DNA of 64,000 nucleotides from Dyadobacter fanqingshengii (lineage in GTDB: Bacteria; Bacteroidota; Bacteroidia; Cytophagales; Spirosomataceae), in assembly GCF_023822005.2 (NCBI RefSeq), contig NZ_CP098806.1, positions 4,030,001 to 4,094,000 on the forward strand, written 5' to 3'. Of the stretch, positions 27,338 to 50,823 are shown piece by piece. The notes under the pieces were generated by a model. The model was not told the origin of the DNA and ran no database searches. It saw only the letters and a program-made list of their open reading frames with translations. Within the stretch, counting starts at the first letter, position 1, and every line of letters begins with the position of its first letter. The position numbers and the translations under genes were made by a program.

Positions 27338-27538
27338 CCTAGCGAATCAGAATGTGCACCATTGTTTATTCTAAACTTCTGCACATATCCAGAATTAAAT
27401 CCTCTGTTTTAACCTAAAAGCAAAATCTAAGACTGAAATAAGTTAATATCGGTAAAAAAGGCGCTAATTATAACGAAGTTTATTGCTTGCCGGAAAGGTA
27501 ATTTTACCCATACGAAATTGAAGATAATCTCTCTTAGT

Positions 27539-29968: not shown

Positions 29969-32959
29969 ATGAATAAACAATTATCCAGACTTATTCAGGA
30001 AGTGGCCTGTTACCTGCTTTGCAGTGTCGCCATGCTGCTCGTCCTGCCAGGAAATGTACAGGCAGCCGATCGCCAGATTACCGGAACAGTGGTTTCAGCG
30101 GAAGATAAAAATCCGCTGCCGGGTGTGACCATTATTGTGAAAGGAAATAATACGATGGGAACTGCGACAGACACCGAAGGAAAATTCAAAATGACTGTTC
30201 CTGAGGACGCAACGCTGATTTTGAGCTACATTGGTTATACAAGCCAGGAGTTGGTTGTGGGAACTCAGAGCGATTTTACCATTGAAATGGCTTCGGACCA
30301 AAAACAGCTTTCGGAGGTGGTCGTAATCGGTTATGGAACGCAGAAAAAAGGCGACATTACCAGTTCGGTCGCGAGCATTAAGCGGGAGGATTTTGTGAAA
30401 GGAACCGTGCGCGATGCCGCGCAATTGATTCAGGGGAAAGTGGCCGGTTTGCGCATAACAACGCCCAGCGGCTCGCCTACTTCCAACACACAGATTAACC
30501 TTAGAGGAATCAACTCCATCAACGGAACTTCAAACCCGTTGATTTTAATCGACGGAATTCCCGGCAACTTGAACACGGTTGCGCCGGAAGACATTGAATC
30601 TGTGGACGTTTTGAAAGACGGTTCTGCGGCTGCGATTTATGGAACACGTGCAACCGGCGGCGTAATTCTGATCACCACGCGTAAAAACCGTGGTAACAAT
30701 TCGCGCTCAACGGTGGAATATTCGAATTACGTAAACATTCAAACCATTGCACGCAGACCAGACCTGCTTACCGGCGACGATTATCGTCAGAAAATTAGTG
30801 AAGGCATTGATTACACGGATTACGGTGGCAACACAGATTGGCTGAAAGAGATTATGCAAAAGCCTGTCAGCCACAACCATAACCTGACATTCTTCGGCGG
30901 AAACAGCACGACCAACTTCACCGGTTCTGTAAATTACAGAAACTGGGAAGGGATCTTTTTGAGATCAGGACAAAGCCGTTTCACCGGCCGCGCCGATCTT
31001 AATCATGCGATGTTCAATAATAAATTAAAAACCAATATTCAGATCATTAACCGCATTACCTCGTCCAATGGAGCGGTTTCGCCGGATAATAATGATGCAC
31101 TTTATGGCTATGCTTACCGCCAGGCGATGATCCGCAACCCGACGGACAATGTCAGAACCGAAACGGGCGCCTGGCAGGAAAGGGACGGGTATTTTTATGA
31201 AAACCCGGTTTCGTTGTTAAACGAATCCAATTATGAGGCCAAATTCAAAGAGATGCGGATGAGTGGAAGTCTGGACTATGCGCCGATTGCTGATCTGAAT
31301 TTCAAATTATTGGTTTCCAATGTACAAAACAGCAATCTGGCAGGCGGTTCCACTACATTCCTGCATACCGCAACGCGTCTTAACAACCAAAATGCAACGG
31401 CATTCAGGAACACAAATGCGAACAACGAAAACCTGCTGGAATTCACAGGAAATTATGCCAAATCATTTGGCAAACACCGTTTTACATTGCTCGGCGGATA
31501 CAGTTGGCAGGACGCAACGTATGAAGCTTTTGATGCAAGCAACTGGGATTTTCCAACGGACGCTTATGATTGGAACAACCTTGGCGCCGGTGGTGCATTG
31601 CAAAAAGGACAAGCTGCCATGTCAAGCACAAAAAACAAATGGCAGTTGGCCGGATTTTTTGGTCGCTTGACTTACAGTTTGGACGAGAAATATCTGTTTA
31701 TGGCCAGCGTGCGTCGCGAAGGTTCTTCCAGATTTGGGATTAACAACCAATGGGGAACGTTTCCTGCCGCTTCGGTGGGGTGGAGAATCAGCAAAGAACG
31801 CTTTATGGAAGGGCTTACGGGCGTTTCTGAGATCAAGCTTCGTGCTGGGATTGGTGTAACCGGGACTATTGCGAGTGATCCTTATTTGTCTCAGATCAGC
31901 TACAATTTTACCCGGACCGAAGGTGCATTCATTGGCGGAAAATGGGTTCCTGGCTTCGTCCCAGCGCGTAACTTCAACCCGGATCTGCGTTGGGAAAAAA
32001 AGGAAGAGGTTAATGCGGGTGTAGATTTTGGTTTCCTGAAAAACAGGATCAATGGTTCGGTTGATTTTTACAGCCGCAAGGTGAAAGATCTGCTTTACGA
32101 TTTCCCAGTTCCGGTTCCTCCTTACCTGATCGGTTCTATGCTGATCAACGCCGGAACCATGAAGAATGAGGGTATGGAAGTGCTTTTGAACATTGTACCG
32201 GTTCAAACGGCCAACCTGCAATGGAATACTGGCTTTACTTATTCGACAAACCGGAACAAACTGGTGAGTCTTTCCAATGATCAGTTTCAGGCAGCAAACG
32301 ACTTTTTTGACGATGGTTACACGGGCGAGCCGATCCAGGTTTCCACGCACCGCGTAAAAGTGGGCGAGCCTATCGGACGGTTCTTTGTTTGGAAAAGTGT
32401 AGGTGTTGATGAAAATGGCGCTTGGTTAGTTGAAAACAAAGATGGTGAAGTGATTCCTATTGCCAATGCGACGCCGGAAGACCGCCAGTATTACGGAAAT
32501 GGTATTCCAAAACACAATGTAGGCTGGAACAACTCGGTTCGTTACAAAAACTTTGACCTGGCTGTAAACATGCGCGGCGCATTCGGATTCGACATTCTGA
32601 ACTTCCAAAGCATGTTTTATAATAACCCAAGAAACAAGGCTTACAACATGCTCAAAACAGCTTATGATCCAATCGACGGCAAAGTGTTGAACAATGAGCT
32701 TGTATATGTTTCCAATTACATTGAAAAAGGCGATTATTGGAAGATCGACAATGTTACGTTTGGCTACACGCTTCCTAACCTCAAAGGCTTGAAAAATGCC
32801 CGGATTTTTGTTTCCGGCCTTAACCTGGCGACCATCACCGGCTACACCGGCGTTGACCCGGAAGGCGTTGACATGACCGGCTTCTTCCCAGGAAGTGACC
32901 AGCGCGACAAATATCCTACAACCCGGACATTCACAGCAGGCCTTAGTGTAACATTCTGA
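29969..32959 (+). CDS. SusC-family TonB-dependent outer-membrane transporter (first pair)
   Basis: 996 residues. After a signal peptide (ending NVQAAD) comes a carboxypeptidase-regulatory-like domain (QITGTVVSAEDKNPLPGVTIIVKG), the SusC motif LSEVVVIGYGTQKKGDIT, the plug (VAGLRITTPSGSP, INLRGINSINGTSNPLILIDGI, IESVDVLKDGSAAAIYG) and the barrel ending TFTAGLSVTF. It is the energised outer-membrane importer of a nutrient complex whose lid is the SusD protein 22 bases downstream. No glycosidase is linked to it; a prolyl peptidase lies just upstream, so imported oligopeptides are a reasonable guess. Confidence 0.95.
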   Translation: MNKQLSRLIQEVACYLLCSVAMLLVLPGNVQAADRQITGTVVSAEDKNPLPGVTIIVKGNNTMGTATDTEGKFKMTVPEDATLILSYIGYTSQELVVGTQSDFTIEMASDQKQLSEVVVIGYGTQKKGDITSSVASIKREDFVKGTVRDAAQLIQGKVAGLRITTPSGSPTSNTQINLRGINSINGTSNPLILIDGIPGNLNTVAPEDIESVDVLKDGSAAAIYGTRATGGVILITTRKNRGNNSRSTVEYSNYVNIQTIARRPDLLTGDDYRQKISEGIDYTDYGGNTDWLKEIMQKPVSHNHNLTFFGGNSTTNFTGSVNYRNWEGIFLRSGQSRFTGRADLNHAMFNNKLKTNIQIINRITSSNGAVSPDNNDALYGYAYRQAMIRNPTDNVRTETGAWQERDGYFYENPVSLLNESNYEAKFKEMRMSGSLDYAPIADLNFKLLVSNVQNSNLAGGSTTFLHTATRLNNQNATAFRNTNANNENLLEFTGNYAKSFGKHRFTLLGGYSWQDATYEAFDASNWDFPTDAYDWNNLGAGGALQKGQAAMSSTKNKWQLAGFFGRLTYSLDEKYLFMASVRREGSSRFGINNQWGTFPAASVGWRISKERFMEGLTGVSEIKLRAGIGVTGTIASDPYLSQISYNFTRTEGAFIGGKWVPGFVPARNFNPDLRWEKKEEVNAGVDFGFLKNRINGSVDFYSRKVKDLLYDFPVPVPPYLIGSMLINAGTMKNEGMEVLLNIVPVQTANLQWNTGFTYSTNRNKLVSLSNDQFQAANDFFDDGYTGEPIQVSTHRVKVGEPIGRFFVWKSVGVDENGAWLVENKDGEVIPIANATPEDRQYYGNGIPKHNVGWNNSVRYKNFDLAVNMRGAFGFDILNFQSMFYNNPRNKAYNMLKTAYDPIDGKVLNNELVYVSNYIEKGDYWKIDNVTFGYTLPNLKGLKNARIFVSGLNLATITGYTGVDPEGVDMTGFFPGSDQRDKYPTTRTFTAGLSVTF

Positions 32960-32981: not shown

Positions 32982-34565
32982 ATGATTAATAAAAGTAAAA
33001 TATACATCGTCCTCGCATCCATGATGGGTGCGGCCACGCTCTACTCCTGCACGGACCTGGAAGAACAGGTTTATTCAGAGGTTTTATCGAGCACTTATCA
33101 GCCAACCGAAAAGGACATTCCAGCGATTATAGCGCCTGTTTATTCGTCTCTTCGGGGGTTAATGTTAGGCTGGCAGGGCTATTTTGATTTGCAGGAAGAA
33201 GCAGCCGACGCCATCGTTACGCCCGTTCGCCCGAATGGCTGGGATGACGGCGGAACGTATCGCCGGATGCACCAGCACACGTGGACTTCCTTGCAATGGC
33301 AACCTGAAAACGCATGGCAAAGCTCATTCCGCAGCATTACAACAGCAAACAGGGTTTTATCTCAAATCGCAGAAGGTGAAATTCCTTTGACGACGGGAAA
33401 AGTGGAATTGGAAGCTGAGTTGAGAGCAGTGCGGGCATTGGCTTACTATCTTTTGCTCGATAACCACGGCAATGTGCCTATCGTCACCGATTTCAAAGAC
33501 ATTAATTTACCAAAACAAAACACGCGCAAAGAGGTGTATGATTTTGTGGTAAAAGAATTGCTGGAAGTGATGCCAAACCTGAGCGAAAACGCATCCACAA
33601 CTTACGGTCAGCTTAACCGTTGGGGTGCAAAAGCACTTTTGGCAAAAATATATTTGAACGCGCAAGTGTACACCGGAACGCCTGAATGGGAAAAAGCCAT
33701 TGCACAGGCTGATGATGTGATTAAAAGCGGCAAATACGTGCTGGACGCTAATTATTCAGACGTTTTCACCTGGACCAATTTCAATTCCAAAGAGATCATT
33801 TTCGCAATCCCTTACGATGAAATTTACGGAACCGGCAACCAGATCCACATGAAAACGCTCGATCCATTGAGCCGCACCGTGTATCCGATGAACGCCGGTC
33901 CATGGGGCGGAAACTGCGCCGTGCCGCAATTTATCGACACTTACGACGCCGAAGACAGCCGTCTGGCCGACACCTGGATTATGGGCCCACAGAAAAACGC
34001 AACAACCGGAGCCGTGGTTATCACTTATTCCAGAACAGTCCCAGGCATCGATAAAACCGCCTCAACCGACGGTTACCGCATTGGAAAATATAAAATCAAA
34101 CCCAACGCAACCGGCAGTTTGGACAACGACTTCCCATTGCTCCGCTATGCCGACGTCATGATGATCAAAGCCGAAGCACTTCTCCGCACCGGCAAAGCCG
34201 CCGACGCAGCAACCATCGTAACGGAAGTTCGCAAACGCGCATTTAAAACCAATTCTGCAAAAGCCACTGTAACAGCCGCAGACCTCGCAAAAGGCAGTCG
34301 CTATAACTACGGTTACCAGGCCACAAACGGCACCATCACAGAGCGCCAAGGCGGAGACGATATCAAGTTCGGCCGCTTCCTGGACGAGCTAGGCTGGGAA
34401 TTCGCAGCCGAAGCACACCGTCGCCAAGATTTGATACGGTTTGGTGTATACGAAACCAAAAAATGGTTCAACCACCGTCCGCAAGCGCAGCAACGGGCGT
34501 TGTTTCCAATTCCGCAAACAGAGTTGGACAAAAACACAAACCTGAAACAGAATCCAGGATATTAA
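32982..34565 (+). CDS. SusD/RagB-family outer-membrane lipoprotein (first pair)
   Basis: 527 residues with a lipoprotein signal (TLYSCTDLEE, Cys about 23). Typical SusD parts are LRAVRALAYYLLLDNHGNVPIVTDF near residue 150, LLAKIYLNAQVYTG, the C-terminal LRYADVMMIKAEALLRTGKAADA and FAAEAHRRQDLIRFG, and the closing FPIPQTELDKNTNLKQNPGY. It forms the surface ligand-binding lid on the preceding SusC. The 22-base gap shows co-transcription; a terminator follows 31 bases after the stop. Confidence 0.95.
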   Translation: MINKSKIYIVLASMMGAATLYSCTDLEEQVYSEVLSSTYQPTEKDIPAIIAPVYSSLRGLMLGWQGYFDLQEEAADAIVTPVRPNGWDDGGTYRRMHQHTWTSLQWQPENAWQSSFRSITTANRVLSQIAEGEIPLTTGKVELEAELRAVRALAYYLLLDNHGNVPIVTDFKDINLPKQNTRKEVYDFVVKELLEVMPNLSENASTTYGQLNRWGAKALLAKIYLNAQVYTGTPEWEKAIAQADDVIKSGKYVLDANYSDVFTWTNFNSKEIIFAIPYDEIYGTGNQIHMKTLDPLSRTVYPMNAGPWGGNCAVPQFIDTYDAEDSRLADTWIMGPQKNATTGAVVITYSRTVPGIDKTASTDGYRIGKYKIKPNATGSLDNDFPLLRYADVMMIKAEALLRTGKAADAATIVTEVRKRAFKTNSAKATVTAADLAKGSRYNYGYQATNGTITERQGGDDIKFGRFLDELGWEFAAEAHRRQDLIRFGVYETKKWFNHRPQAQQRALFPIPQTELDKNTNLKQNPGY

Positions 34566-35557: not shown

Positions 35558-35567
35558 TATGATTTTT

Positions 35568-35688: not shown

Positions 35689-37074
35689 ATGTTCTCAACA
35701 GACACTTACAAACAACGCCGCCGGATCTTAAAACAGAAAGTAGGGAGCGGTTTAATTCTTTTTCTCGGCAATGATGAATCCGGGATGAATTATCGGGATA
35801 ATGTTTATCCATTTCGTCAGGACAGCACTTTTTTATATTATTTCGGGCTGGATACGGCTTCGATTCATGCGGTTATTGACATTGACAATGATCAGGAAAT
35901 CATTTTCGGCGACGAACTGACGATTGATGACATTGTCTGGACGGGTTACCAGGAGCCGCTTGTTGAAAAAGCTGCCAAAGTGGGTGTTAACCAGGTGAAA
36001 CCGCTTTCGGCGCTCGCTGGATATCTTCGGGATATTCAAAGCAGGAAACAGGAAGTGCATTTTTTACCCCCTTACCGCGCTGAGCATAATCTGAAATTGC
36101 AGGAATGGCTGCAAGTTTCACCGGCCGAAGCGCCGCAACGAGCATCCGTGAAGCTGATCAAAGCCGTCGTTTCCATGCGTTCTTACAAGTCATCGGAGGA
36201 GATCGCCGAAATCGAAAAAGCCGTCAACACTTCCATTGACATGCATTTGGATTTCATGCGCACAACCCGCCCGGGCATGACGGAAAAAGCCATTGCAGGA
36301 AAGTTACAAAGCATTGCCATCGCGCAAGGCGGCGACATTTCATACCCGATCATTCTGACAGTCAACGGAGAAACATTGCACACGCACGCCCGTGATCGCG
36401 TTATAAAGGACGGCGAAATGGCATTATGCGACGCCGGTGCCGAAACCGCCATGCGTTACTGCGGCGACCTGACCCGCACCATTCCGGCCGGAAAGCAGTT
36501 CAACAGCATTCAGAAAGAAATGTATGAGATAGTGCTTAATGCACAAGTTTCAGCCATTGAAGCGTGCAAACCAGGTGTTTTATTCAAAGATGTGCATGCA
36601 TTAGCCTCCACAAAATTACTGGAAGGTCTAAAATCAGTAGGCATCATCAAAGGCGATCCGCAGGAAGCACTCGCAAATGACGTTCACACGCTTTTCTTCC
36701 AATGCGGCCTCGGCCACATGATGGGCCTGGACGTCCACGACATGGAAAACCTCGGCGAACAATACGTAGGCTACTCCGACGACCTCATCAAAGGCACCGC
36801 CTTCGGCTGGAAATCCCTCCGCCTAGGCCGGGCATTGGAACCAGGCTTTGTGCTAACCGTCGAGCCTGGTTTGTATTTTATCCCAACATTAATTGATCGC
36901 TGGAAGGCGGAAAATAAACTTTCCCAGTTTATTGATTATGGGAAATTGGAGCAGTTTAGGAATTTTACGGGGATTAGGGTGGAGGATAATTTGGTGATTA
37001 CAGAAGATGGGAATCGGGTATTGGGGAAGGAATTGGTGAAGGATGTGGTGGGGATTGAGGCGTTGCGGGGGTGA
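35689..37074 (+). CDS. M24-family aminopeptidase P (Xaa-Pro aminopeptidase)
   Basis: 461 residues, cytoplasmic. An N-terminal AMP_N domain (about 1-165: GSGLILFLGNDESGMNYRDNVYPFRQDSTFLYY) precedes the pita-bread catalytic domain. All five metal ligands of dinuclear M24 enzymes can be placed: Asp248 (CDAGAE), Asp260 (GDLTRT), His343 (GLGHMMG), Glu392 (TVEPGLYF) and Glu432 (RVEDNLV). It removes the first residue from peptides whose second residue is proline, consistent with the prolyl-peptide theme of the region. The accessory DUF3800 and DUF6934-like genes flank it on both sides. Confidence 0.93.
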   Translation: MFSTDTYKQRRRILKQKVGSGLILFLGNDESGMNYRDNVYPFRQDSTFLYYFGLDTASIHAVIDIDNDQEIIFGDELTIDDIVWTGYQEPLVEKAAKVGVNQVKPLSALAGYLRDIQSRKQEVHFLPPYRAEHNLKLQEWLQVSPAEAPQRASVKLIKAVVSMRSYKSSEEIAEIEKAVNTSIDMHLDFMRTTRPGMTEKAIAGKLQSIAIAQGGDISYPIILTVNGETLHTHARDRVIKDGEMALCDAGAETAMRYCGDLTRTIPAGKQFNSIQKEMYEIVLNAQVSAIEACKPGVLFKDVHALASTKLLEGLKSVGIIKGDPQEALANDVHTLFFQCGLGHMMGLDVHDMENLGEQYVGYSDDLIKGTAFGWKSLRLGRALEPGFVLTVEPGLYFIPTLIDRWKAENKLSQFIDYGKLEQFRNFTGIRVEDNLVITEDGNRVLGKELVKDVVGIEALRG

Positions 37075-37773: not shown

Positions 37774-37782
37774 TCAATACCA

Positions 37783-37820
37783 AAAAGAAAAGACGCATCC
37801 TCAAATGCGTCTTTTCTTTT
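37783..37820. terminator. Bidirectional rho-independent terminator
   Basis: Perfect 16-base arms at 37783-37798 and 37805-37820 pair around the 6-base loop CCTCAA; the GC part is GACGCAT / ATGCGTC, and each strand ends in a T-rich tract. It lies 9 bases after the small gene at 37612-37773 and 4 bases beyond the stop of the opposing reading frame at 37825, which supports both as genes. Confidence 0.88.
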
Positions 37821-37824
37821 GAGC

Positions 37825-38247: not shown

Positions 38248-38345
38248 ATTACAGCTTACTCGGGAAATTGGACGCTGTAAACTTAGTGGGTTTGTTGGAA
38301 AAAGCAAAAGTGAATACAACTTCAAGGAATATTCATTGTAATTCT

Positions 38346-38375
38346 TAGCTTTGCTAAAATTCAAGAACACACTAT
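38346..38375 (+). promoter_or_regulatory. Candidate promoter and leader motif of DUF6934-like module 2
   Basis: TAGCTTTG (38346-38353) and AACACACTAT (38366-38375) are 12 bases apart, the same pair of elements seen before module 1. The start codon follows the second motif after 2 bases, so if TAGCTTTG is the -7 element the leader is short. Confidence 0.5.
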
Positions 38376-38377
38376 AA

Positions 38378-39057: not shown

Positions 39058-40608
39058 TTATCGTCCCACGCCTGCCGCTGCCTTGGCTTTAGGCAGTTCT
39101 TTTCTTGGAATCTTCTGGTTAAGCTGCGCCGTGTTGTAAACGAAGGTTGCAACCACCACGGCCATTTGCTTCAAATCATCCATAACCAATCGCTCGTAAG
39201 TGTCCACGTTCGTATGGTGCGTGCGGGAGCCGTATTCGATTCCATCTTGAATGAACTGAAAACCAGGCAATCCCAATACATCAAATGCAAGGTGATCGGT
39301 GCCTCCGGTGTTTCGGGATGTGATCGTGGGATGATCTATGATGTCGTTGAATGGAGCAAACCATTTTTCGAAAAGCGCGCGCGGGCCTTCGTTTCCTTGC
39401 AGGTAAATGCCGCGGATGCGGCCTGTGCCATTATCAATGTTATAATATGCGGAAAGCTTTTCATGCGCCGGCAACAGTTTCATGGTTTCGTAGTCACCAA
39501 AAGTGTTTTTGGTATAATTCCGCGAGCCATGCAAGCCCTGTTCCTCGCCCGACCAAAGTGCAATGCGAATGGTTCTTCTTGGTTTCAAGCCGGATGCTTG
39601 CAAAATTCTCACCGCTTCCAACATCACCGTGCAACCGGCTGCATTATCCGTTGCGCCCGTGGCGCTGTGCCAGGAATCGAGGTGGCCGCCTAGCATTACG
39701 ATCTCGTCTTTTAGCTTGGGATCGGTACCAGGGATTTCGGCGATTACGTTGCCTGTGGTGAGTTTTTTGTTGAAGAATGAAGTTTGTGATTCGGCTTCCA
39801 ACGTTACCGGGATGCCGCTTTCGATGAGTCGGGCTACGAGTCCGGCGTGCTCCGGAGCCATTTCGAATGCGGGACCGGCTATGGGTGCGTCACCTTTGTA
39901 GGATGCGCCGTTGCTGGTGAAGAATGTGCCATGCTTGCCTGCTCTGCCTGCCAATTCCAGACTGATTTTCTGTGCCTTCATTGTGCTGTCGACGCGGCTG
40001 CGGAAACTGCGCATGGTGCGCATCCGTTCGGCTTGTTCGGGTGTAAAATTGCTTTGGCCAAATGGCTGCGAATTCGTCATTTTGTCCAAATCCTCCGTTG
40101 TGTAACGCACAGCATCAGGCTTGAATGTCGGGTCAGTGTCGGCGGGGCCTTTCACCAAAACGATTTTTCCTGTCAGCTTTCCGTCTGCATATTTTTTGAG
40201 GTCTTCTTCATTTTGAATGTTCACAACCACCACTTCGCCTTTGATCGGCCCTGCCGTTCCGGAAGTCCAGGCTTTTGGAATGGCGATAAAGGGCATGTAA
40301 TAAGGCTTGGTCATGGCCAAATAGCTTTTTTCAACCTGCCAGCCTTTTCCAAATTCACCCCAATCTTCAATGCGCGAATTTTGCAAACCCCACTTTTTCA
40401 GCTCACTTACCGACCATTCTGCGGCTCTTTGGAAGCCGGGTGAGTTGGTTAGGCGTGGGCCGGAAACGTCTGTTAGCTGATGGGCGATTTCTTTCACCTT
40501 GGAATTCTCCATTCCTTCCTTACGGATTTTGGCGAGGGCGGCTTGTTCGATCTCCTGCGCCAGCAGAAGCCCTGGACAAAACAGGAGTGAGTAAAAGATC
40601 TTTTTCAT
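39058..40608 (-). CDS. M28-family zinc peptidase, secreted
   Basis: 516 residues from the ATG at 40608, chosen because it gives a compact signal peptide (MKKIFYSLLFCPGLLLAQ); an in-frame ATG at 40632 is possible. A PA-like insert lies in the middle of the protein. The catalytic M28 domain shows all zinc-site motifs: GGHLDSWH, TGATDNAAG, WSGEEQGLHGS, YYNIDNGTG, NTGGTDHLAFD and RTHHTNVDTYE. Family members are aminopeptidases or carboxypeptidases of the periplasm. It is the last gene of the DUF885-permease-M28 run (gap to the permease 44 bases) and fits peptide breakdown. Confidence 0.93.
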   Translation of the reverse strand: MKKIFYSLLFCPGLLLAQEIEQAALAKIRKEGMENSKVKEIAHQLTDVSGPRLTNSPGFQRAAEWSVSELKKWGLQNSRIEDWGEFGKGWQVEKSYLAMTKPYYMPFIAIPKAWTSGTAGPIKGEVVVVNIQNEEDLKKYADGKLTGKIVLVKGPADTDPTFKPDAVRYTTEDLDKMTNSQPFGQSNFTPEQAERMRTMRSFRSRVDSTMKAQKISLELAGRAGKHGTFFTSNGASYKGDAPIAGPAFEMAPEHAGLVARLIESGIPVTLEAESQTSFFNKKLTTGNVIAEIPGTDPKLKDEIVMLGGHLDSWHSATGATDNAAGCTVMLEAVRILQASGLKPRRTIRIALWSGEEQGLHGSRNYTKNTFGDYETMKLLPAHEKLSAYYNIDNGTGRIRGIYLQGNEGPRALFEKWFAPFNDIIDHPTITSRNTGGTDHLAFDVLGLPGFQFIQDGIEYGSRTHHTNVDTYERLVMDDLKQMAVVVATFVYNTAQLNQKIPRKELPKAKAAAGVGR

Positions 40609-40652
40609 AGGAGAAGATATTTTTCTATTCAATTTCTATCAAAGAAGATTCT

Positions 40653-42080
40653 TTATGCTTTGATCTCTTTTCTTGCAATCAGATAGTAAACTGGAATGCC
40701 CAGCAGCACAATGATCAGCCCAGGCCATGTGTATTCTGGTTTGTAAATGATCAGCAAAACACAGAAGGCAACGCCCATGATGATATAAATGATCGGCAAA
40801 AATGGATAGCCAAATGCTTTATAAGGCCTTTCCGCATCCGGTCTTTTTTTCCTTAGAATAAAAATCCCAACAATGGTCAGCATATAAAACACAACTACCA
40901 CAAATGAGATCATATCCAGGAGATTACCATACTTTCCGCTCAATGCCCAGAGTGACGCAATGACACATTGAATCCAAAGCCCAAATTCGGGAACAGAATT
41001 CTTGTTAAGCTGCCCTACTTTGCTAAAAAACAGACCGTCTTTGGCCATAGAATAATAAACCCGCGCGCCTGACATGATCAATCCGTTGTTACAGCCAAAT
41101 GTTGAAATCATGATCATCACCGCGATAATGATCGTTCCAGAATTGCCAAAAATTACTTGTGAAGCGCTTACCGCAACGCGATCTTTATCAGCAGCCGCAA
41201 TTTCCTGCAAAGACAACACGCCGGTGTACATAACATTGGTTAGCAAATAAATCACCGTCACAATGATGGTTCCTAATGCAAGGCTGAGTCCAATGTTACG
41301 CTGTGGATTTTTGATTTCTCCTGCGATGAAAGTTACATTATTCCAGGAATCGCTACTGAAAATAGAGCCGACCATGGATGCAGCGATGGCGCCGAAAGCG
41401 GCGATTGTGGTGTAAGAGGCAATACTCCCGTCGACATTCAGTTTATGCATATCCCACATGGTCGCTGAGTCCCAGTTGGCAGCCCAGATCTCCGGTTTCA
41501 TGAAAATTAAACCAAAAACGATCAAGCCTAGCAAGCTTAATAACTTGGTGAGCGTGAATGTGGTCTGGATAATTTTGCCGCTGTTGACGCCGCGTGTATT
41601 GATGAACGTTAACAGCACAATGACGACAATGGACAATAACTGGGCGGGGGTTATTTGTAAAAAACCGAGATCTAGTGCGACAATGTCTTCGCTGAATTGC
41701 GGCAATAAATAGGCTGTGAATTTAGCAAAAGCCACGGCCACGGCGGCAATGGTAGCGGTTTGAATTACGGTGAAAAAACTCCAACCATATAGAAAGCTGA
41801 TCAGTGGATTATAGGCTTCTTTGAGATAAATATACTGGCCGCCGGCTTTGGGAAACATGGCGCTCAGCTCGCCGTAACTCAATGCGGCCGTGAGCGTCAT
41901 AAAACCGGTGATGAGCCAAACGAACATGAGCCAGCCGACGCTTCCGGTGTTTCGTGTAATGTCCGCGCTTACAATGAAAATGCCCGATCCGATCATACTG
42001 CCGGCAACGAGCATGGTTGCGTCTACGAGACCTAATGTGGGTTTAAATGCGGTTTTTTCCGGGACAGGTTCTACAGACAT
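40653..42080 (-). CDS. APC-superfamily amino-acid permease
   Basis: 475 residues, about 12 membrane helices. The first helix motif LVDATMLVAGSMIGSGIFIVSADI is the G-S/A-G-I-F unwound region of amino-acid/polyamine/organocation carriers; helix 2 has LSYGELSAMFPKAGGQYIYLKEAYNP. Substrate cannot be read from sequence. The gene lies between a DUF885 hydrolase and an M28 peptidase and next to the hydroxyproline operon, so uptake of (hydroxy)proline or other amino acids freed by these peptidases is the simplest guess. Confidence 0.93.
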   Translation of the reverse strand: MSVEPVPEKTAFKPTLGLVDATMLVAGSMIGSGIFIVSADITRNTGSVGWLMFVWLITGFMTLTAALSYGELSAMFPKAGGQYIYLKEAYNPLISFLYGWSFFTVIQTATIAAVAVAFAKFTAYLLPQFSEDIVALDLGFLQITPAQLLSIVVIVLLTFINTRGVNSGKIIQTTFTLTKLLSLLGLIVFGLIFMKPEIWAANWDSATMWDMHKLNVDGSIASYTTIAAFGAIAASMVGSIFSSDSWNNVTFIAGEIKNPQRNIGLSLALGTIIVTVIYLLTNVMYTGVLSLQEIAAADKDRVAVSASQVIFGNSGTIIIAVMIMISTFGCNNGLIMSGARVYYSMAKDGLFFSKVGQLNKNSVPEFGLWIQCVIASLWALSGKYGNLLDMISFVVVVFYMLTIVGIFILRKKRPDAERPYKAFGYPFLPIIYIIMGVAFCVLLIIYKPEYTWPGLIIVLLGIPVYYLIARKEIKA

Positions 42081-42132
42081 ACAAAGGTTTAGGTTTAAAC
42101 TTGGCAGAAGTTTCGACTCTTAAAGTACGCTT

Positions 42133-43920
42133 TTATTTGAAACTATAAAATTTCCACTTTGTTTTAAAGTCACGCATTACAGGCTGATTGATCAATGTGG
42201 CCCTTACCATTTCAATGGGCATATTATTTTCCTTCATGATGGCATCGTGGAAATCCTTGTATGTCATTTTTCCACTGTCGACCAGTTCATTTTTCAGGCT
42301 CAGGATCTGCAAGCCGCCGATGAGATAGGCCACCTGGTAAAGCGGACTGTAACTGCCTTCGAATGACCGGCGTACTTCGCCTTCCGCATTAGCGCGTTCG
42401 TGACCAACCCTATCCACCAGAAAATCAATGCATTGCTGCGGGCCCCACTTGCCTAAATGATAATTGAGCGAAAAAATAATCCGCGCACAACGGTGCATCC
42501 GCCAGAACAACATCCCGATCCGCTCCTCGGGTGTTTTGGCAAAACCTTTGTCATACAACAACAATTCCCAATAAAGCGACCAGCCCTCCGTCCAAAACGG
42601 CGTCCTGAATTCGCTGCGGTAAGCCTTGTAACGGCTGTTCATATAGTATTGCAAATGATGCCCCGGCACAAGCTCGTGATGCACAGTCGCCCTTGAAAAA
42701 TAAGGGTTGTTGCCACGCATGCTCATGAGCTTATCCTCATGCTGCATGGTGTTGGTGGGATAGGAAATGATAATGTCGCGGCCACCCAAGAAGAATGGGT
42801 TAATGAGCTGACGTTCAGGCGTCATCATCTGCATTCCCCAGGTTTCGTCGGCGATTTCGGGATAGTCGAGCAGGTTGTTGGCAGTGATGAAAGTTTTTGC
42901 GTCGTCGTAGAGTTTCAGGATCAATTCGGGCTGCGTTCCGGCTTTTACATAACTGTTTTTGACCTTTTCTTGTGCCTTTTTCCAATCATTTCCAAAGCCC
43001 ATTTCCTGTGAAGCTTTCAGCAATTCCTTGTCGCACCATGCAAATTCTTTGTTGGCCAAATCAATCAGTTCATCCGGCGTGTAACTGATCATTTCTGCGT
43101 CCAGCTGCCGGATTAGCTCATCACGGCCGATGGGAACGCCTTTGATTCCGCTGTTATCGTCTTTCTGGGTTGTGGTCAGCTTGCCTTTGCTTTTGATGGC
43201 TTTGGCATAAGCGGTTAATGCGCTGTCTAATGCGTGGTACGGTTCAGGAACCCACCATGAAAACATGGGGTCGTATCCTTTATAAAACTCATAAGTGCTT
43301 TTTAATCTGGATTTCAAGCCACTTACCGCCTCTTCGCCGCGTTCTGCGAGTGGCATTTCAATGCTTTCTATTTTCTTGAATGCGTCTGAGGCTGTTTTTA
43401 CTTCTTTCAAAATATCATTCAGTAGACCTGCAACTGCTTGTCCATCAACGGTTGCACCGCGGCGGCGGCCTTTTTCTAATGCATAAATTTTATCGGCAAA
43501 GGGGAAATGTGTCTTTACAGCATTGTATTCTTTTTCTTCTTTGATTAATGTTAATAAATCGTCCTCAATGCTCCGTTTGAGCAAAATATAATCCACTTTT
43601 CCATAAATGCTCATGGCATCAAAATCGAGCTTGGCTAATTTTTCAAGATAATTTTGATCCACTTCCCGGAGGCGCTTGCGCTGTTCAGGTGCATTCAAAA
43701 CACTGATAGGCGCTCCAAAACCGCCTCTTCCACGTTCCATAGGCGAGTAAAAGGAGCGGATTGCACGCGAGTCCTGTCCATATTGAATGATGAGTCCGGC
43801 TGTTTCGCTGGTTTGTTCGTAGAGGTTGAATTTGCTTTGGGCAAATGTTTTTGGAAGAAAAAAAGTGGCGCTTATCAAGAAAATAACGCACAAGAAAATG
43901 CGATGGTTGAAGTGGTTCAT
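42133..43920 (-). CDS. DUF885-family secreted metallohydrolase
   Basis: 595 residues with a signal peptide (FLICVIFL... region ending KTFAQ). The family signature HHELVPGHHLQYYMNSR, an HExxH-like zinc motif with PGHH, lies near residue 425, and FWTEGWSLYWELLLYDKGF follows, both diagnostic of DUF885. Some members are known or predicted peptidases or dipeptidases. It begins 58 bases after the terminator of the hydroxyproline operon and leads the DUF885-permease-M28 set, so it is probably a periplasmic peptidase in the same nutritional programme. Confidence 0.92.
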   Translation of the reverse strand: MNHFNHRIFLCVIFLISATFFLPKTFAQSKFNLYEQTSETAGLIIQYGQDSRAIRSFYSPMERGRGGFGAPISVLNAPEQRKRLREVDQNYLEKLAKLDFDAMSIYGKVDYILLKRSIEDDLLTLIKEEKEYNAVKTHFPFADKIYALEKGRRRGATVDGQAVAGLLNDILKEVKTASDAFKKIESIEMPLAERGEEAVSGLKSRLKSTYEFYKGYDPMFSWWVPEPYHALDSALTAYAKAIKSKGKLTTTQKDDNSGIKGVPIGRDELIRQLDAEMISYTPDELIDLANKEFAWCDKELLKASQEMGFGNDWKKAQEKVKNSYVKAGTQPELILKLYDDAKTFITANNLLDYPEIADETWGMQMMTPERQLINPFFLGGRDIIISYPTNTMQHEDKLMSMRGNNPYFSRATVHHELVPGHHLQYYMNSRYKAYRSEFRTPFWTEGWSLYWELLLYDKGFAKTPEERIGMLFWRMHRCARIIFSLNYHLGKWGPQQCIDFLVDRVGHERANAEGEVRRSFEGSYSPLYQVAYLIGGLQILSLKNELVDSGKMTYKDFHDAIMKENNMPIEMVRATLINQPVMRDFKTKWKFYSFK

Positions 43921-43954
43921 CCAGGTCTGATTAAGGTTTAGAAAAGCTATTCAA

Positions 43955-43980
43955 ACAAAAAACCCGGATCATTCCGGGTT
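43955..43980 (-). terminator. Rho-independent terminator overlapping a stop codon
   Basis: On the minus strand AACCCGG (43980-43974) pairs with CCGGGTT (43967-43961) around a 6-base loop, followed by a T run. The stem begins inside the stop codon of the D-amino-acid oxidase-type gene (43979-43981) and separates the hydroxyproline operon from the DUF885 operon. Confidence 0.85.
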
Positions 43981-45241
43981 AATTATATCGTTCAGGATTG
44001 TAAAGTTTGATATCCGCCGACAATGCAGACTCGTTGGCTAGCTCCGCCACCATCTTGCCCGTGGCAGGTCCGAGGCTGATGCCCATCATGCCATGACCGC
44101 CGGCGACGATCAGGTTTTTCAATTTTTTGCTATAACCCAGATAAGGCAGCCCATCCGGAGAACATGGACGGAAACCATACCAAATCCGCTCTTTGGCCGG
44201 AACACTCACATTCAGTTCAGGATAATAATTGGGAATGGAGTTCACAATGCCCTCCACGCGGTTCATATTAATGTTGTCATTCACGGCTGCGAGTTCCATT
44301 GTCCCGCCGAATCGAACTTTACCATTCATTGGCGTAACGGCGACGCGGGCTTCAATCAGCAATGCGGGATGTTCAATTTTATGCTCCGAATTAGGCTCCA
44401 TGAACGAATAACCTTTTCCAGGCATGACTGGAATGGATAATCCTGCCAACTTGGAAAGTTCAGGAAGCCAGGTTCCGCCGGTCATGATAACGAGGTCGCC
44501 TTCCACTGTTTTGGTTTCAGTTTGAACGCCTTTTATTTCTCCGTTTTTTATATCAAAACCTTTAACCTTTGCATTTAAGATTACTTCCGCGCCTTGTGAT
44601 TTGATGTATTTCAAAAGCTGCGAAAACAATGCAGTGGGATATAAATGTGCATCGCAATGATAATGCACTGCGCCTATTACATCCAATTGAATGTTCGGTT
44701 CAATGGCTTGAACTTGCTCCTTAGTCAGCATTTCAATGTCCAAACCCAGTTTCTGGCCGTCTCTAGCAACGTGGATTTCTTCTTCTCCGGCTTTCTCCGT
44801 TTTGTAAAGCATGAGAATGCCTTTTTCTTCCAGACCAAAATCAAAACCATCTTCTTTGTCCAGATCTTCGTAAAGCTGCTTGCTAAGCAAATGATAGTCT
44901 CGCAAATAAGGCGCGGCACGTTCTACATTCGCAGGCGTGGCGCTTTTCATGAATTTCAAACCCCAGGAAATCAGTGACCAGTCGAGCGAAGGTTTTACAT
45001 AAAAAGGGCTTCGGCTGTCGAACATCCATTTGATGCCTTTGGAAATCATGCCGGGAGCCGCCAGCGGAATAAAATGACTTGGAACGATCATTCCAGCATT
45101 ACCTTGTGAACAATTGTCCGCCAGATCGCCCTTATCAATCAACGTCACTTTCCATCCGCTTTTAAGCAAATAATAAGCCGAAGTCAACCCCATAATCCCG
45201 CCGCCAATGATGGTGGCTTTTCCCTTGTTCGTCACGTTCAT
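43979..45241 (-). CDS. FAD-dependent D-amino-acid oxidase/dehydrogenase, probable cis-4-hydroxy-D-proline dehydrogenase
   Basis: 420 residues, DAO/DadA type. The FAD-binding motif IIGGGIMGLTSAYYL is at 11-25 and is followed by the DadA-like NCSQGNAGMIVPSH; a C-terminal GYSKKLKNLIVAGGHGMMGISLGPATG closes the FAD site. The family oxidises D-amino acids to imino acids. It is placed 15 bases after the 4-hydroxyproline epimerase, and with the deaminase and aldehyde dehydrogenase upstream it should oxidise cis-4-hydroxy-D-proline to pyrroline-4-hydroxy-2-carboxylate. Substrate is inferred from the operon; general D-amino-acid dehydrogenase is the alternative. Confidence 0.88.
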   Translation of the reverse strand: MNVTNKGKATIIGGGIMGLTSAYYLLKSGWKVTLIDKGDLADNCSQGNAGMIVPSHFIPLAAPGMISKGIKWMFDSRSPFYVKPSLDWSLISWGLKFMKSATPANVERAAPYLRDYHLLSKQLYEDLDKEDGFDFGLEEKGILMLYKTEKAGEEEIHVARDGQKLGLDIEMLTKEQVQAIEPNIQLDVIGAVHYHCDAHLYPTALFSQLLKYIKSQGAEVILNAKVKGFDIKNGEIKGVQTETKTVEGDLVIMTGGTWLPELSKLAGLSIPVMPGKGYSFMEPNSEHKIEHPALLIEARVAVTPMNGKVRFGGTMELAAVNDNINMNRVEGIVNSIPNYYPELNVSVPAKERIWYGFRPCSPDGLPYLGYSKKLKNLIVAGGHGMMGISLGPATGKMVAELANESALSADIKLYNPERYN

Positions 45242-45256
45242 ATTTTGTAAAGCTCC

Positions 45257-46258
45257 CTAAATCACCTGAAATCCAAATGCATATGGATCTTCCTCGTCGT
45301 CGATAATGATTGTATTGTAACCCGTCACCACCGCCCAGCCTTCGATGCCTGGAATAATGGCAGGCTTGTCTCCTATCGTTACTTCGTCCTCAACGGATCC
45401 TGTGAATTTGGATCCGATAATACTTTCGTGAATGAACTGATCGCCTTTTTTGAGCTTTCCCTTAGCATGCCATTGCGCCATCCGGGCCGAAGTTCCGGTT
45501 CCGCAGGGTGATCTGTCAATAGCTTTATCTCCGTAGAAAACTGCATTGCGGGCTGTTGAAGTCTCGTCCAGAACCGCACCGGCCCATAGAAAGTGGCTCA
45601 ATCCGTTGATGTGCTCGTTTTCAGGATGGACAAACTTGTATTTTTCGTTCATCCGCGTGCGGCAAACGCGGCTCCAACTGATCAGCTGATCAGCTGTGTA
45701 ATGCTCGATTCCTTTGAAATTTTCCTGCGGGTCCACAATGGCGTAAAAGTTGCCGCCATAGGAAACATCCACCTTCAATGTGCCCAGTTCAGGACACTCC
45801 ACTTCGAGGTTCTCGGCTGCTAAAAATGATTTTATATTGATCAGTTTAACAGATTTCACTCTTTTGCCTTCCTGCACATATTCCACCAAAACCAGTCCGG
45901 CAGGCGTTTCGAGGCGCAGTTTTCCTGGGATTTTGGGGGTTACCAAACCTTCCTGAATCGCTATGGTGACAGTTCCAATGGTTCCGTGACCGCACATCGG
46001 GAGGCAGCCGCTGGTTTCAATGTAGAGCACGCCAATGTCGTTCGCGGGATCGACGGGCGGATATAAAATGCTTCCGCTCATCATGTCGTGCCCGCGCGGC
46101 TCGAACATTAATCCTTTTCTGATCCAGTCAAATTCTTTCAAAAAGTGAAGCCTGCGCTCCATCATGCTATTGCCCTGCAAAAGCGGGCCGCCACCGGCCA
46201 CCACACGAACGGGATTCCCGCAAGTGTGCGCGTCGATGCAGAAAAACGTTTTTCTCAT
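45257..46258 (-). CDS. 4-hydroxyproline 2-epimerase (proline racemase family)
   Basis: 333 residues. Both catalytic cysteines are present: Cys89 in MCGHGT and Cys252 in DRSPCGTGT. The second Cys separates epimerases/racemases from trans-3-hydroxyproline dehydratases, which have Thr there. The start FFCIDAHTCGNPVRVVAGGGP and the segment RGHDMMSG are typical of the hydroxyproline branch. It interconverts trans-4-hydroxy-L-proline and cis-4-hydroxy-D-proline in the cytoplasm. Its ATG overlaps the stop of the aldehyde dehydrogenase gene (TAATG), indicating translational coupling. Proline racemase is unlikely given the operon. Confidence 0.92.
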   Translation of the reverse strand: MRKTFFCIDAHTCGNPVRVVAGGGPLLQGNSMMERRLHFLKEFDWIRKGLMFEPRGHDMMSGSILYPPVDPANDIGVLYIETSGCLPMCGHGTIGTVTIAIQEGLVTPKIPGKLRLETPAGLVLVEYVQEGKRVKSVKLINIKSFLAAENLEVECPELGTLKVDVSYGGNFYAIVDPQENFKGIEHYTADQLISWSRVCRTRMNEKYKFVHPENEHINGLSHFLWAGAVLDETSTARNAVFYGDKAIDRSPCGTGTSARMAQWHAKGKLKKGDQFIHESIIGSKFTGSVEDEVTIGDKPAIIPGIEGWAVVTGYNTIIIDDEEDPYAFGFQVI

Positions 46259-47733
46259 TACAAAGCCTCCTTCGTTAGCTCGTTATTAACCGTCCGCCAG
46301 ATGCCGAGCGGATTGGCATTTTTCAATTCTTCGGGTAAAAATTCGTCCGGCCAGTTCTGGAAACTCATCGGCCGCACAAAACGCTTGATCGCGTCCGAGC
46401 CAACCGAAGTAAACTGGCTGTTGCTCGACGATGGGAATGGCCCGCCGTGGTGCATGGATTTACAAACTTCGACGCCCGTCGGGAAATTATTAAATAAAAT
46501 ACGGCCACATTTGTCGGTTACCAAGCCGATTAGTTCTTCGTTTTCAGCGAGGTCTTCGTTGCTTGCAAGCAATGTGGCTGTTAACTGTCCGTGCAGTTTT
46601 CCACCGACAGAAATCACTTCATCAATGCTTTCACACTTGATAATCAACGCAAACGGACCGAAAACCTCTTCCTGCAGAGCATCATTTTTCAGGAATGTTT
46701 GCGCATTCACCGTTGCAACCGTTGCGCCGCCTTGTCCTTCCAAAACTTCGGTTTCAGTAACGGCAAGGATTTCAACGCCGGGCTGCGTGGTTAACTTTTG
46801 GCTTCCTTTAATATAGCTTTCTGCAATGCCGACATGAAGCATATGCGCCGGAGCGATTTTTACAATTTCTTCTTGCAAGGCATTCTCGAAAGTGTCCAAG
46901 GCAGGGCTTTCAATGGCAATGACAATGCCGGGATTTGTGCAAAATTGACCTACGCCTAATGTTAGCGAGCCAGCATATTGTTTTGCCAATTCAGCAGCAG
47001 ATGCTTCCAATTTTTTTGGTAATAAAAACACAGGATTAACACTGCCCATTTCAGCAAAAACCGGAATTGGATTTGGTCTTTTTCCCGCAATCTCAGCCAA
47101 TGCAGTTCCAGCATGGTAAGAACCGGTAAAACCAACGGCCTTAATGATCGGATGGCTTACCAAAAATTGCGACTCCTCATTGGTTTCGAAATAAACGTGT
47201 GAAAAAGTGCCTTCCGGAAAACCGCTTTTGCTAACCCCGCGACTGATGGCATCGGCCATGATCTGCGAAGTTTCGGGATGGCCGGGATGTGCTTTTACCA
47301 CAACCGGGCAGCCTGCCGCAATGGCGCTGGCTGTGTCGCCGCCTGCTGTTGAGAATGCGAATGGGAAATTGCTTGCGCCGAAAACGGCAACGGGTCCTAA
47401 TGCAATGCTTGTTTTGCGAATATCCGGCTTAGGAGGCGTCCTTTCGGCATTTGCTGTGTCGATGCTGGCATCCAGCGGAGCGCCTTTTTCCAATGCTTCT
47501 GCATAGCTTCTCCATTGGAAAATCGTCCGTGCTTTTTCGCCGGTTAAGCGTGCTTCGGGCAAGTTGGATTCTGCTTTGGCCGTTGCAATGAGTTCAGGCC
47601 CAATGGCTTCGATCTCATCCGCAATGGTCCGCATCAGCGCAACACGCTTTTGAATTGAATATTTTTTCATGATCACAAAAGCCTCGAGAGACTTTTGCAA
47701 TATGGCTTCCAGTTGTTCTTTTGAAGTTGTCAT
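46258..47733 (-). CDS. Aldehyde dehydrogenase, probable 2-oxoglutarate semialdehyde dehydrogenase
   Basis: 491 residues. Catalytic Cys265 is in GQFCTNPG, general base Glu228 in FAEMGSVNP, and Asn122 in GASNFPFAF; these forms, rather than the common GQxC and ELGGK forms, are those of the branch acting on 2-oxoglutarate semialdehyde (2,5-dioxopentanoate). The product, 2-oxoglutarate, enters the TCA cycle. It lies 90 bases after the deaminase gene and overlaps the epimerase gene. The cofactor preference cannot be settled from sequence. Confidence 0.92.
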   Translation of the reverse strand: MTTSKEQLEAILQKSLEAFVIMKKYSIQKRVALMRTIADEIEAIGPELIATAKAESNLPEARLTGEKARTIFQWRSYAEALEKGAPLDASIDTANAERTPPKPDIRKTSIALGPVAVFGASNFPFAFSTAGGDTASAIAAGCPVVVKAHPGHPETSQIMADAISRGVSKSGFPEGTFSHVYFETNEESQFLVSHPIIKAVGFTGSYHAGTALAEIAGKRPNPIPVFAEMGSVNPVFLLPKKLEASAAELAKQYAGSLTLGVGQFCTNPGIVIAIESPALDTFENALQEEIVKIAPAHMLHVGIAESYIKGSQKLTTQPGVEILAVTETEVLEGQGGATVATVNAQTFLKNDALQEEVFGPFALIIKCESIDEVISVGGKLHGQLTATLLASNEDLAENEELIGLVTDKCGRILFNNFPTGVEVCKSMHHGGPFPSSSNSQFTSVGSDAIKRFVRPMSFQNWPDEFLPEELKNANPLGIWRTVNNELTKEAL

Positions 47734-47823
47734 GGTTGGTTAGGATAATTTCTGTTTGTAAAAGTCGCGAATTGAATGCTAATCCAGCTTTAAAGTAAAG
47801 CCGGATTACGTCATGCGACAATG

Positions 47824-48762
47824 TTATGCAACAGAAAAATCCGAAGACAAATTCAAATAATCTGGCAATGCAGGCTGAGTTGAAATAGCTTGATCAATAA
47901 TTGCAAGCACTTTTTCACGCTCTGCGCCTTCCAAAACTAATCTTGGTGCGCGAACGAATTCCGAGCCAATGCCTGCTTTGGTAGCGGCAAGCTTGATGTT
48001 TTGAACCAGTTTTGGATGAATGTCCAGTTCTAGCAAAGGAAGATACCAACGGTAAACGGCCAAGGCTTCTTTATATAAACCAGCTTTAACCAGATTGAAA
48101 ATCGCAACGGTTTCTTTTGGGAATGCGTCAACCAAGCCACCCACAACGCCGTCGCAGCCCAGCATAACCTCTTCCATAATCAATGTATCCACGCCGCAGA
48201 AAACTTTGAAACGGTCACCGAAACGGTTGTACAGGCGGGTAACATTGCTTACGTCACGTGTTGATTCCTTGATTGCGTGCACATTCGGAATCTCGGCAAG
48301 CTGCTCGAACATTTGTAACGTCACTTCGATTTTGTAATCTACCGGATTGTTGTAGATCATTAATGGCAATGAGGTGCTTTGCGCGATGGTTTTGAAGTAA
48401 ACAACCGTTTCGTGATCGTCGGCTTTGTAACGCATTGGAGGCAAGACCATTAGGCCGTCTGCACCCGCAGCTTCGGCTTCTTTGGCAAGGCTTACCGCTT
48501 CCGCAGTGGATTGCTCGGCAATGCAGACCACGATCGGGAAATCCTGCGCAACAATGCTTTTGGCATATTTAACCAATTCCACTTTTTCCGCTTTCGTCAA
48601 TGTGCTTGCTTCGCCCAGTGAGCCTGAAACGATCGCGCCAGTCACGCCTGCTTCGATCTGCACTTCCAGATTTTTGCGAAAAAGATCAAAATCAATGCTG
48701 TCATCTGATTTGAAAGGCGTTAGCAACGCCGGAAATACACCTTGCCAGGATTCCTTGTTCAT
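47824..48762 (-). CDS. DapA-family lyase, probable pyrroline-4-hydroxy-2-carboxylate deaminase
   Basis: 312 residues, dihydrodipicolinate-synthase superfamily. Tyr137 (MIYNNP) and Schiff-base Lys165 (AIKES) are in place, as is the carboxylate-binding loop SGSLGEASTL (Ser46-Leu55) in which the usual GTTGE reads GSLGE. True DapA is not expected in this operon; members in hydroxyproline clusters deaminate and dehydrate pyrroline-4-hydroxy-2-carboxylate to 2-oxoglutarate semialdehyde. It is the first gene of the operon, with a candidate promoter 40 bases upstream. Confidence 0.88.
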   Translation of the reverse strand: MNKESWQGVFPALLTPFKSDDSIDFDLFRKNLEVQIEAGVTGAIVSGSLGEASTLTKAEKVELVKYAKSIVAQDFPIVVCIAEQSTAEAVSLAKEAEAAGADGLMVLPPMRYKADDHETVVYFKTIAQSTSLPLMIYNNPVDYKIEVTLQMFEQLAEIPNVHAIKESTRDVSNVTRLYNRFGDRFKVFCGVDTLIMEEVMLGCDGVVGGLVDAFPKETVAIFNLVKAGLYKEALAVYRWYLPLLELDIHPKLVQNIKLAATKAGIGSEFVRAPRLVLEGAEREKVLAIIDQAISTQPALPDYLNLSSDFSVA

Positions 48763-48801: not shown

Positions 48802-48829
48802 CAAAGTTAATGGTTGAAAAACCGACAAA
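48802..48829 (-). promoter_or_regulatory. Candidate promoter of the hydroxyproline operon
   Basis: On the minus strand TAACTTTG (48809-48802) fits the Bacteroidota -7 pattern TAnnTTTG, with TTTG (48829-48826) 16 bases upstream, slightly closer than usual. The expected transcript would begin near 48795, about 30 bases before the deaminase start. Confidence 0.45.
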
Positions 48830-48885
48830 CATTTCTGGTTTTAATCAATAATATACGAATTTTAACATAAAACCGAATCCGGAGT

Positions 48886-50814: not shown

Positions 50815-50823
50815 AGCTGAGGG

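Follow-up and report, generated by a model that had tools for sequence, protein, structure and literature searches.

The window analysed here, a stretch of 64,000 nucleotides from the 6.27 Mb genome of Dyadobacter fanqingshengii, contains a predicted operon for trans-4-hydroxy-L-proline catabolism and, some distance away, regulatory, transport and peptidase genes that probably act with it (Table 1). Seven genes on the reverse strand coincide with open frames at 39058–48762, and each scores above the cut-off of its Pfam family. Four of them encode an enzyme of the DHDPS fold, an aldehyde dehydrogenase, a predicted 4-hydroxyproline epimerase (HypE) and an FAD-dependent amino-acid oxidase/dehydrogenase (DAO), while the other three encode a DUF885 protein, an APC-family permease and an M28 peptidase. 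The initial annotation had assigned the four enzymes to a route from hydroxyproline to 2-oxoglutarate in a member of the Bacteroidota. This is borne out by the frames, the Pfam families, the curated HypE match and the catalytic residues, as well as by the epimerases of the named strains most similar to it, which are 98% (D. psychrophilus) and 97% (Dyadobacter sp. CY347) identical. The operon is predicted to encode the complete pathway from trans-4-hydroxy-L-proline to 2-oxoglutarate. The pathway itself is already known; what is new and testable among the predictions is a larger regulon marked by a specific DNA element.

Table 1. Genes and sites of the hydroxyproline locus in the window (L and G numbers, here and in the text, are our labels for loci and genomes).
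Feature	Position	Strand	Evidence or remark
DHDPS/NAL-fold enzyme, putative delta1-pyrroline-4-hydroxy-2-carboxylate deaminase	47824..48762	-	PF00701, 197 bits
Aldehyde dehydrogenase, putative 2-oxoglutarate semialdehyde dehydrogenase	46258..47733	-	PF00171
Predicted 4-hydroxyproline 2-epimerase (HypE)	45257..46258	-	NCBIfam NF010578, 594.5 bits (cut-off 376)
DAO, putative D-hydroxyproline dehydrogenase	43979..45241	-	PF01266
Putative intrinsic terminator behind the four enzyme genes	43980-43961 (stem)	-	terminator scan; 8 pairs, tail TTTTGTTTGA
DUF885 protein, putative exported metallopeptidase	42133..43920	-	PF05960; signal sequence by eye
APC-family amino-acid permease	40653..42080	-	PF13520
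M28 peptidase, lineage-specific neighbour	39058..40632	-	PF04389; signal sequence by eye
AraC-family regulator, operon-linked clade	21407..22285	+	tree, best-hit linkage
DPP-IV-like S9 peptidase, probable start 27539	27518..29860	+	PF00930, PF00326; signal sequence by eye
SusC-type TonB-dependent receptor	29969..32959	+	50% homologue adjoins operon in L076
SusD-type lipoprotein	32982..34565	+	47-59% homologues adjoin operon in L076, L107, L108, L109
M24 Xaa-Pro aminopeptidase or dipeptidase, putatively cytoplasmic	35689..37074	+	PF00557, PF05195; no signal sequence by eye
Regulatory box of hydroxyproline operon, 27 bases	48840..48866	-	common to Dyadobacter operon upstream regions
Promoter -7-type element TAACTTTG, 30 nt after box	48802..48809	-	spacing rule
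Second, weaker box upstream of S9-SusCD	27442..27468	+	spacing, conservation in Dyadobacter
TAATTTTA, possible -7 element 30 nt after second box	27499..27506	+	spacing

The best-identified part of the locus is the epimerase, the only PF05544 match in the genome, whose predicted activity rests on its family and on specificity residues of the HypE pattern. For neither proline racemase nor trans-3-hydroxyproline dehydratase does it reach the NCBIfam cut-off. Visual inspection of the alignment shows that it keeps the Cys-Cys catalytic pair (MCGHGT, DRSPCGTG) and carries Ser, His and Tyr at the three discriminating sites; HypE-type enzymes are described as lacking Phe at site 1 and having His at site 4 and Cys or Tyr at site 5 (PMC4364671). 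The family also includes members acting on proline or trans-3-hydroxyproline (PMC4364671, PMC4113996), and the operon might then serve D-proline or 3-hydroxyproline. This is highly improbable, as the Cys-Cys pair is unlike the Cys-Thr dehydratase type, the three residues and NCBIfam scores are those of HypE, and the DHDPS-fold and aldehyde dehydrogenase partners belong to the 4-hydroxyproline route. In another locus (L182, G085:C4), the epimerase orthologue has a second proline-racemase-family gene, 37% identical, at a distance of about 3 kb.

The chemistry of the remaining three steps would follow from operon context, because their families fit but the curated families assign none of the exact reactions. 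The DHDPS-fold enzyme, with its lysine in AIKEST, scores below the NCBIfam dapA cut-off (178.5 vs 206.15). For the aldehyde dehydrogenase (AEMGS, GQFCTNPG), the nearest solved structures are 3v4c (424 bits) and 1eyy (421 bits), with the named 2-oxoglutarate semialdehyde dehydrogenase (KGSADH) 5x5t at 69 bits, and of its 39 NCBIfam matches the 25 listed all score far below cut-off. Among solved structures the DAO (IGGGIMGLT) is nearest to glycine and sarcosine oxidases, and its best NCBIfam match, NF001933 for D-amino acid dehydrogenase, reaches 239 bits, below the cut-off of 383. These catalytic motifs were likewise read by eye. The make-up of the operon agrees with published neighbourhoods of 4-hydroxyproline epimerases, in which the DAAO, DHDPS and aldehyde dehydrogenase families are linked to the epimerase (PMC4113996). 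The same partners recur in a first comparison set of 81 sources (the best 80 of 587 epimerase matches, chosen by similarity, and the window), in which open reading frames were called and clustered: the DHDPS-fold cluster appears in 72, the DAO in 71 and the aldehyde dehydrogenase in 67.

The terminator that had been placed between the four enzymes and the DUF885-APC-M28 genes is present, though single sites of this kind are weak evidence: the scan of the window returned 28 against 19.0 expected in shuffles, with this one the top of its strand. Rfam (gathering thresholds) and tRNA scans over the window gave no matches. The DUF885 protein scores above the Pfam gathering threshold, and its predicted fold matches DUF885 structures first, then M32, M3 and ACE peptidases; it also lies near oligopeptidases such as Pz-peptidase A. 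The APC permease gene stands inside the operon or directly after it in six loci (L036, L050, L055, L108, L109, L110), in the first three between the enzymes. The M28 gene, whose more likely start is the ATG at 40608 and not the TTG at 40632, was rejected as a conserved part of the locus: it occurs in four of the 81 sources (L001, L002, L004 and the window), and in none of the 22 other genomes that encode a close homologue does this lie 15 kb or less from the epimerase (0.20 expected).

No regulator stands beside the operon in the window. In a tree of AraC proteins, the product of the gene at 21407 falls into a clade of 27 rows (support 100/100) whose members are encoded beside the operon or, twice, beside a DUF885 or S9 gene; it is nearest to the L050 protein and to a G253 protein encoded beside DUF885. 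The second AraC protein of the window and seven other AraC genes fetched from the same genome (one of them, own_L156, read in part, 177 aa) lie outside this clade. Between the gene at 21407 and the operon sit the S9, SusCD and M24 genes, relatives of which adjoin the operon elsewhere. The S9 peptidase is nearest to the dipeptidyl aminopeptidase IV entries 2d5l and 2ecf among solved structures, and the M24 protein to Xaa-Pro dipeptidase and aminopeptidase P. The seven genes of the original locus are thus real, but its extent was drawn too small, since the linked AraC, S9, SusCD and Xaa-Pro peptidase genes at 21407–37074 probably belong with it. The same interval contains an ATP-type 5-oxoprolinase (PF05378/PF01968/PF02538) that overlaps an NRAMP-family transporter (22348–27337). 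As a conserved part this pair was rejected outside Dyadobacter (none of 12 within 15 kb, 0.10 expected); four Dyadobacter loci (L003, L005, L007, L010) have a homologue of at least one of the two close to the operon. Growth of C. glutamicum on 5-oxoproline requires an NRAMP-family protein (PMC13274462).

Since the first set was picked by similarity, 296 Bacteroidota genomes were drawn as a second set, and linkage to the epimerase was compared with random placement. An epimerase orthologue is present in 61 of them, the Dyadobacter genome included, at an identity of at least 62%, the remaining matches lying at 34–38%. Across this sample DUF885, APC, DPP-IV-like S9, M24 and AraC genes are neighbours of the epimerase much more often than random placement predicts and M28 genes are not, although the expectations treat genomes as independent while they are related, which makes the figures indicative only. 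DUF885 genes stand within 10 kb in 14 of the 61 genomes, own included (0.32 expected); those below 200 bits account for nine genomes, and those of at least 200 bits for five, where they lie 32–60 bases from the epimerase and, in G103, G107 and G029, between dehydrogenase and epimerase. Within 15 kb, S9 genes of the window type are found in six of eight other genomes (0.05 expected) and other S9 genes in two of 30 (0.36 expected); the corresponding counts are 5/13 for M24 (0.08), 4/18 for APC (0.15) and 31/42 for the best AraC hit (0.30). In the first set, where representatives of new neighbour clusters were identified by Pfam, AraC occurs in 39 sources, DUF885 in 25, APC in 20, M24 in 15, S9 in 12 and M1 peptidases in 12. 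Of the neighbours originally named, DUF885 and APC are linked to the epimerase and M28 is not; the proposed connection with peptide breakdown is supported. These counts also bear on the possibility of a plain operon for free hydroxyproline with the peptidases, SusCD and glycosidases as unrelated neighbours. Many loci do have the core genes without these, and M28 and 5-oxoprolinase are indeed unlinked; however, this reading is unlikely, because the proximity of DUF885, S9, M24 and GH127 genes to the epimerase greatly exceeds expectation, DUF885, APC or GH127 genes stand within the operon in some genomes, and a related DNA element precedes S9-SusCD in Dyadobacter.

The element in question consists of a 27-base box with the consensus GTTAAWATnTGyrnAnnATTGATTAAt, located 30 nt before the promoter box TAnnTTTG, the -7 promoter type of the Bacteroidota phylum. 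The sequence GTTAAAATnnGTAnnnnATTGATTAA is common to the Dyadobacter operon upstream regions with few deviations and matches once in the window (0.02 expected). A matrix built from Dyadobacter only (27 bases, 10 distinct sites) was applied to other genera, with 100 column-shuffled matrices as control. Sites scoring above 16 precede 19 of 61 DHDPS genes (shuffled mean 0.11, maximum 1) and 7 of 68 HypE genes (mean 0.06). The remaining hits are two of 11 and none of seven in the two GH127-type clusters (means 0.01 and 0.02), one of ten S9, one of ten M24 and three of 601 unclassified genes (means 0.02, 0.03 and 0.76); none precede DUF885 (0/19), APC (0/7), M1 (0/11) or GH27 (0/8). The evidence for the box before DHDPS and HypE genes is strong, and that for each other gene class is weak when taken alone.

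With a 21-site matrix applied to L001–L115 and the window, 75 boxes are followed by TAnnTTTG at distances of 10–50 nt (training sites included); in 54 of them the distance is exactly 30 nt, and no other distance exceeds four. The Dyadobacter-only matrix, applied to 67 loci from 60 sample genomes, gives TAnnTTTG at 30 nt in 10 of 23; 12 sites have a spacing of 29–31 nt, 11 before DHDPS and one before GH127. Among the 47 of these loci fetched after the spacing rule had been set, 14 boxes have TAnnTTTG at 10–50 nt, eight at 30 and one at 31, and all nine precede DHDPS; the 20 loci fetched earlier have it at 30 nt in two of nine only. The full element stands before DHDPS or HypE in 10 of 11 Dyadobacter loci, and the eleventh, L010, has the element while its DHDPS frame is uncalled. 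Other genes with the element at 29–30 nt are GH127 (L023, L026, L057, L106), M1 (L051), DUF885 (L020, weak) and SusC-like genes (L050, L066, L112; tblastn). The second box, with its 30-nt spacing, is found before S9 in the window and in all seven Dyadobacter loci with window-type S9 (L088–L094), and is absent from the more distant L095; an S9 match at 1e-150 is missing in four of 11 Dyadobacter genomes. As a separate observation, a contig labelled Williamsia (Actinomycetota; L029) carries a Bacteroidota-type operon, AraC gene and promoter and is probably misbinned.

Besides the relatedness of the sampled genomes, several observations weigh against the proposed regulon. Outside Dyadobacter, co-regulation of the peptidases is weakly supported, because S9 and M24 have one hit each and DUF885, APC, M1 and GH27 none. 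In the window no box scoring over 11 lies upstream of DUF885, DUF885-APC-M28 are without one of their own, and the 5-oxoprolinase gene, which stands between AraC and S9, is unlinked to the epimerase elsewhere (0/12). The S9 box fits well in its first half only, and its TAATTTTA departs from TAnnTTTG. When the threshold is low, matches to the box by itself barely outnumber those in reversed sequence (257 vs 200; 75 vs 57), and 20 sample loci viewed earlier hold three sites above 16 against one in the reversed control. Of 69 named loci outside Dyadobacter, some of which supplied training sites for the 21-site matrix, 32 have the full element before DHDPS or HypE; among the 59 sample loci in which a frame for either gene was called, just 11 do. 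The element is therefore lineage-limited, or elsewhere diverged past scoring. Forty tiles of the Dyadobacter genome (about 0.79 Mb outside the window, including its four GH127 genes) contain no box 29–31 nt before TAnnTTTG. The four sites above 15 which the Dyadobacter-only matrix finds there (best 20.3, in L140) have neither TAnnTTTG nor variants within 60 nt, and a box before the own GH127 genes was rejected, the best site in their loci (L082–L087) scoring 11.2. Finally, Dyadobacter lacks GH127 near the locus, and the nearest of its own four GH127 genes lies about 0.65 Mb from the operon.

In relatives, glycosidases join the operon and bear on the natural substrate, for which collagen or plant glycoproteins had originally been named. 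GH127 genes lie within 10 kb of the epimerase in seven of the 61 genomes, own included (0.36 expected), and within 25 kb in ten. Among the 81 sources, GH127-type neighbours occur in 18 (two clusters, 11 and 7) and GH27 alpha-galactosidases in eight. In three loci the operon itself includes a GH127/GH146-type gene (L049 and L050, there between HypE and DAO, and L096), and six Mucilaginibacter loci (L023, L026, L027, L031, L032, L035) have GH127 and GH27 before DHDPS on one strand. The operon-adjacent GH127-type proteins match solved beta-L-arabinofuranosidases: that of L057 matches 6ex6, 4qjy and 3wkw, the last being HypBA1, and that of L096 matches 5opj and 8k7x. In two genomes (G034:C57 and G131:C70), the N-terminal half of a 5-oxoprolinase lies about 4 kb from a GH127 gene.

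Extensins and related glycoproteins form a nitrogen-rich part of the plant cell wall, and extensin serine bears alpha-galactose. Extensin hydroxyproline bears beta-L-arabinosides (PMC4454575). Because beta-L-arabinofuranosidases and GH27 join hydroxyproline catabolism in some relatives, a plant hydroxyproline-rich glycoprotein of the extensin type is most likely the substrate and is favoured over collagen. The same regulon could draw mainly on collagen or gelatin peptides of animal remains, which its hydroxyproline enzymes, DPP-IV-like S9, Xaa-Pro peptidase and DUF885 protein (with a fold near Pz-peptidase A) would suit equally; moreover, GH127 lies within 25 kb in those ten of 61 sample genomes only, and not in Dyadobacter itself. 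This source is nevertheless rather unlikely, as beta-L-arabinofuranosidase and alpha-galactosidase genes without an evident role in collagen use stand at the operon in several genera, some GH127 genes carry the box at 29–30 nt (the four loci above), and no collagenase is found among the neighbour clusters identified by Pfam.

Taken together, gene content, linkage and the shared element point to a probable regulon for uptake and catabolism of hydroxyproline peptides, in which one AraC protein would drive both the operon and S9-SusCD. SusCD (29969–34565) would carry peptides or glycopeptides over the outer membrane, and the exported S9 and possibly DUF885 peptidases would trim those containing proline and hydroxyproline. 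The APC permease may import the amino acids released, while the M24 enzyme would cleave Xaa-Pro bonds in the cytoplasm. HypE would then convert trans-4-hydroxy-L-proline to cis-4-hydroxy-D-proline, to be oxidised by the FAD enzyme; deamination of the product by the DHDPS-fold enzyme would give 2-oxoglutarate semialdehyde, from which the dehydrogenase would make 2-oxoglutarate. The AraC protein (21407) is the candidate binder of the 27-base box and would activate both transcription units from it, 30 nt before the -7 element. Whether the Bacteroidota as a whole possess a regulon of this kind, ancient, under AraC control and directed at plant hydroxyproline-rich glycoproteins, is evenly balanced; such a regulon would combine de-arabinosylation by GH127/GH146, de-galactosylation by GH27, SusCD, proline/hydroxyproline peptidases including a putative DUF885 gluzincin, hydroxyproline catabolism and the box at exactly 30 nt.

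The proteobacterial trans-4-hydroxy-L-proline pathway consists of HypE, D-hydroxyproline dehydrogenase, delta1-pyrroline-4-hydroxy-2-carboxylate (Pyr4H2C) deaminase and KGSADH. The Dyadobacter operon has the same four families, its epimerase above the curated cut-off; unlike that pathway, it is tied to SusCD, exported peptidases and an AraC-associated box with TAnnTTTG, and relatives add beta-L-arabinofuranosidases. With the polysaccharide utilisation loci of Bacteroidota the locus has in common a SusC/SusD pair, hydrolases that are exported and a regulator of its own, whereas here the proposed substrate is a peptide or glycopeptide and the regulator a plain AraC protein. HypBA1/HypBA2 of Bifidobacterium longum are likewise GH127/GH146 enzymes for plant beta-L-arabinosides, and the enzymes of the Bacteroidota relatives match HypBA1 (3wkw) and 8k7x. 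As described in abstracts, they release sugars from the beta-L-arabinooligosaccharides of plant hydroxyproline-rich glycoproteins for import (PMC7263609, PMC10850190), whereas the Bacteroidota loci add a half for peptide and hydroxyproline catabolism.

Within the open-licence literature (subscription journals being outside this scope), no paper was found that joins an arabinofuranosidase with a hydroxyproline epimerase or deals with a hydroxyproline AraC regulon in Bacteroidetes, and none of the titles listed concerned such a locus; an open-licence paper on Latescibacteria discusses GH127 acting on extensins, and a bifidobacterial review was the one item to bring together hydroxyproline, SusD and arabinofuranosidase. 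Work on bacterial extensin breakdown, as far as the surveyed extracts go, deals mainly with the sugar half. The regulon, if real, would show soil Bacteroidota eating the protein half of extensin-type glycoproteins too. It would also give DUF885 peptidases a physiological setting and provide a DNA element with which to seek further genes of the system in Bacteroidota.

Further features of the window lie outside these arguments. Directly upstream of the operon (48886–52971) are genes for two large transglutaminase-core proteins, one with DUF3857 and one with a weak DUF3858; both are found upstream of the operon in eight of 11 Dyadobacter loci. At 37154–38839, two DUF6934 genes flank an open frame of 190 aa (37825–38397) without a Pfam match at 0.001. 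A gene at 17536–21300 encodes a fusion of 1254 aa which combines ThuA and DUF7133 with a stretch resembling HEAT repeats and a copper domain of plastocyanin type.

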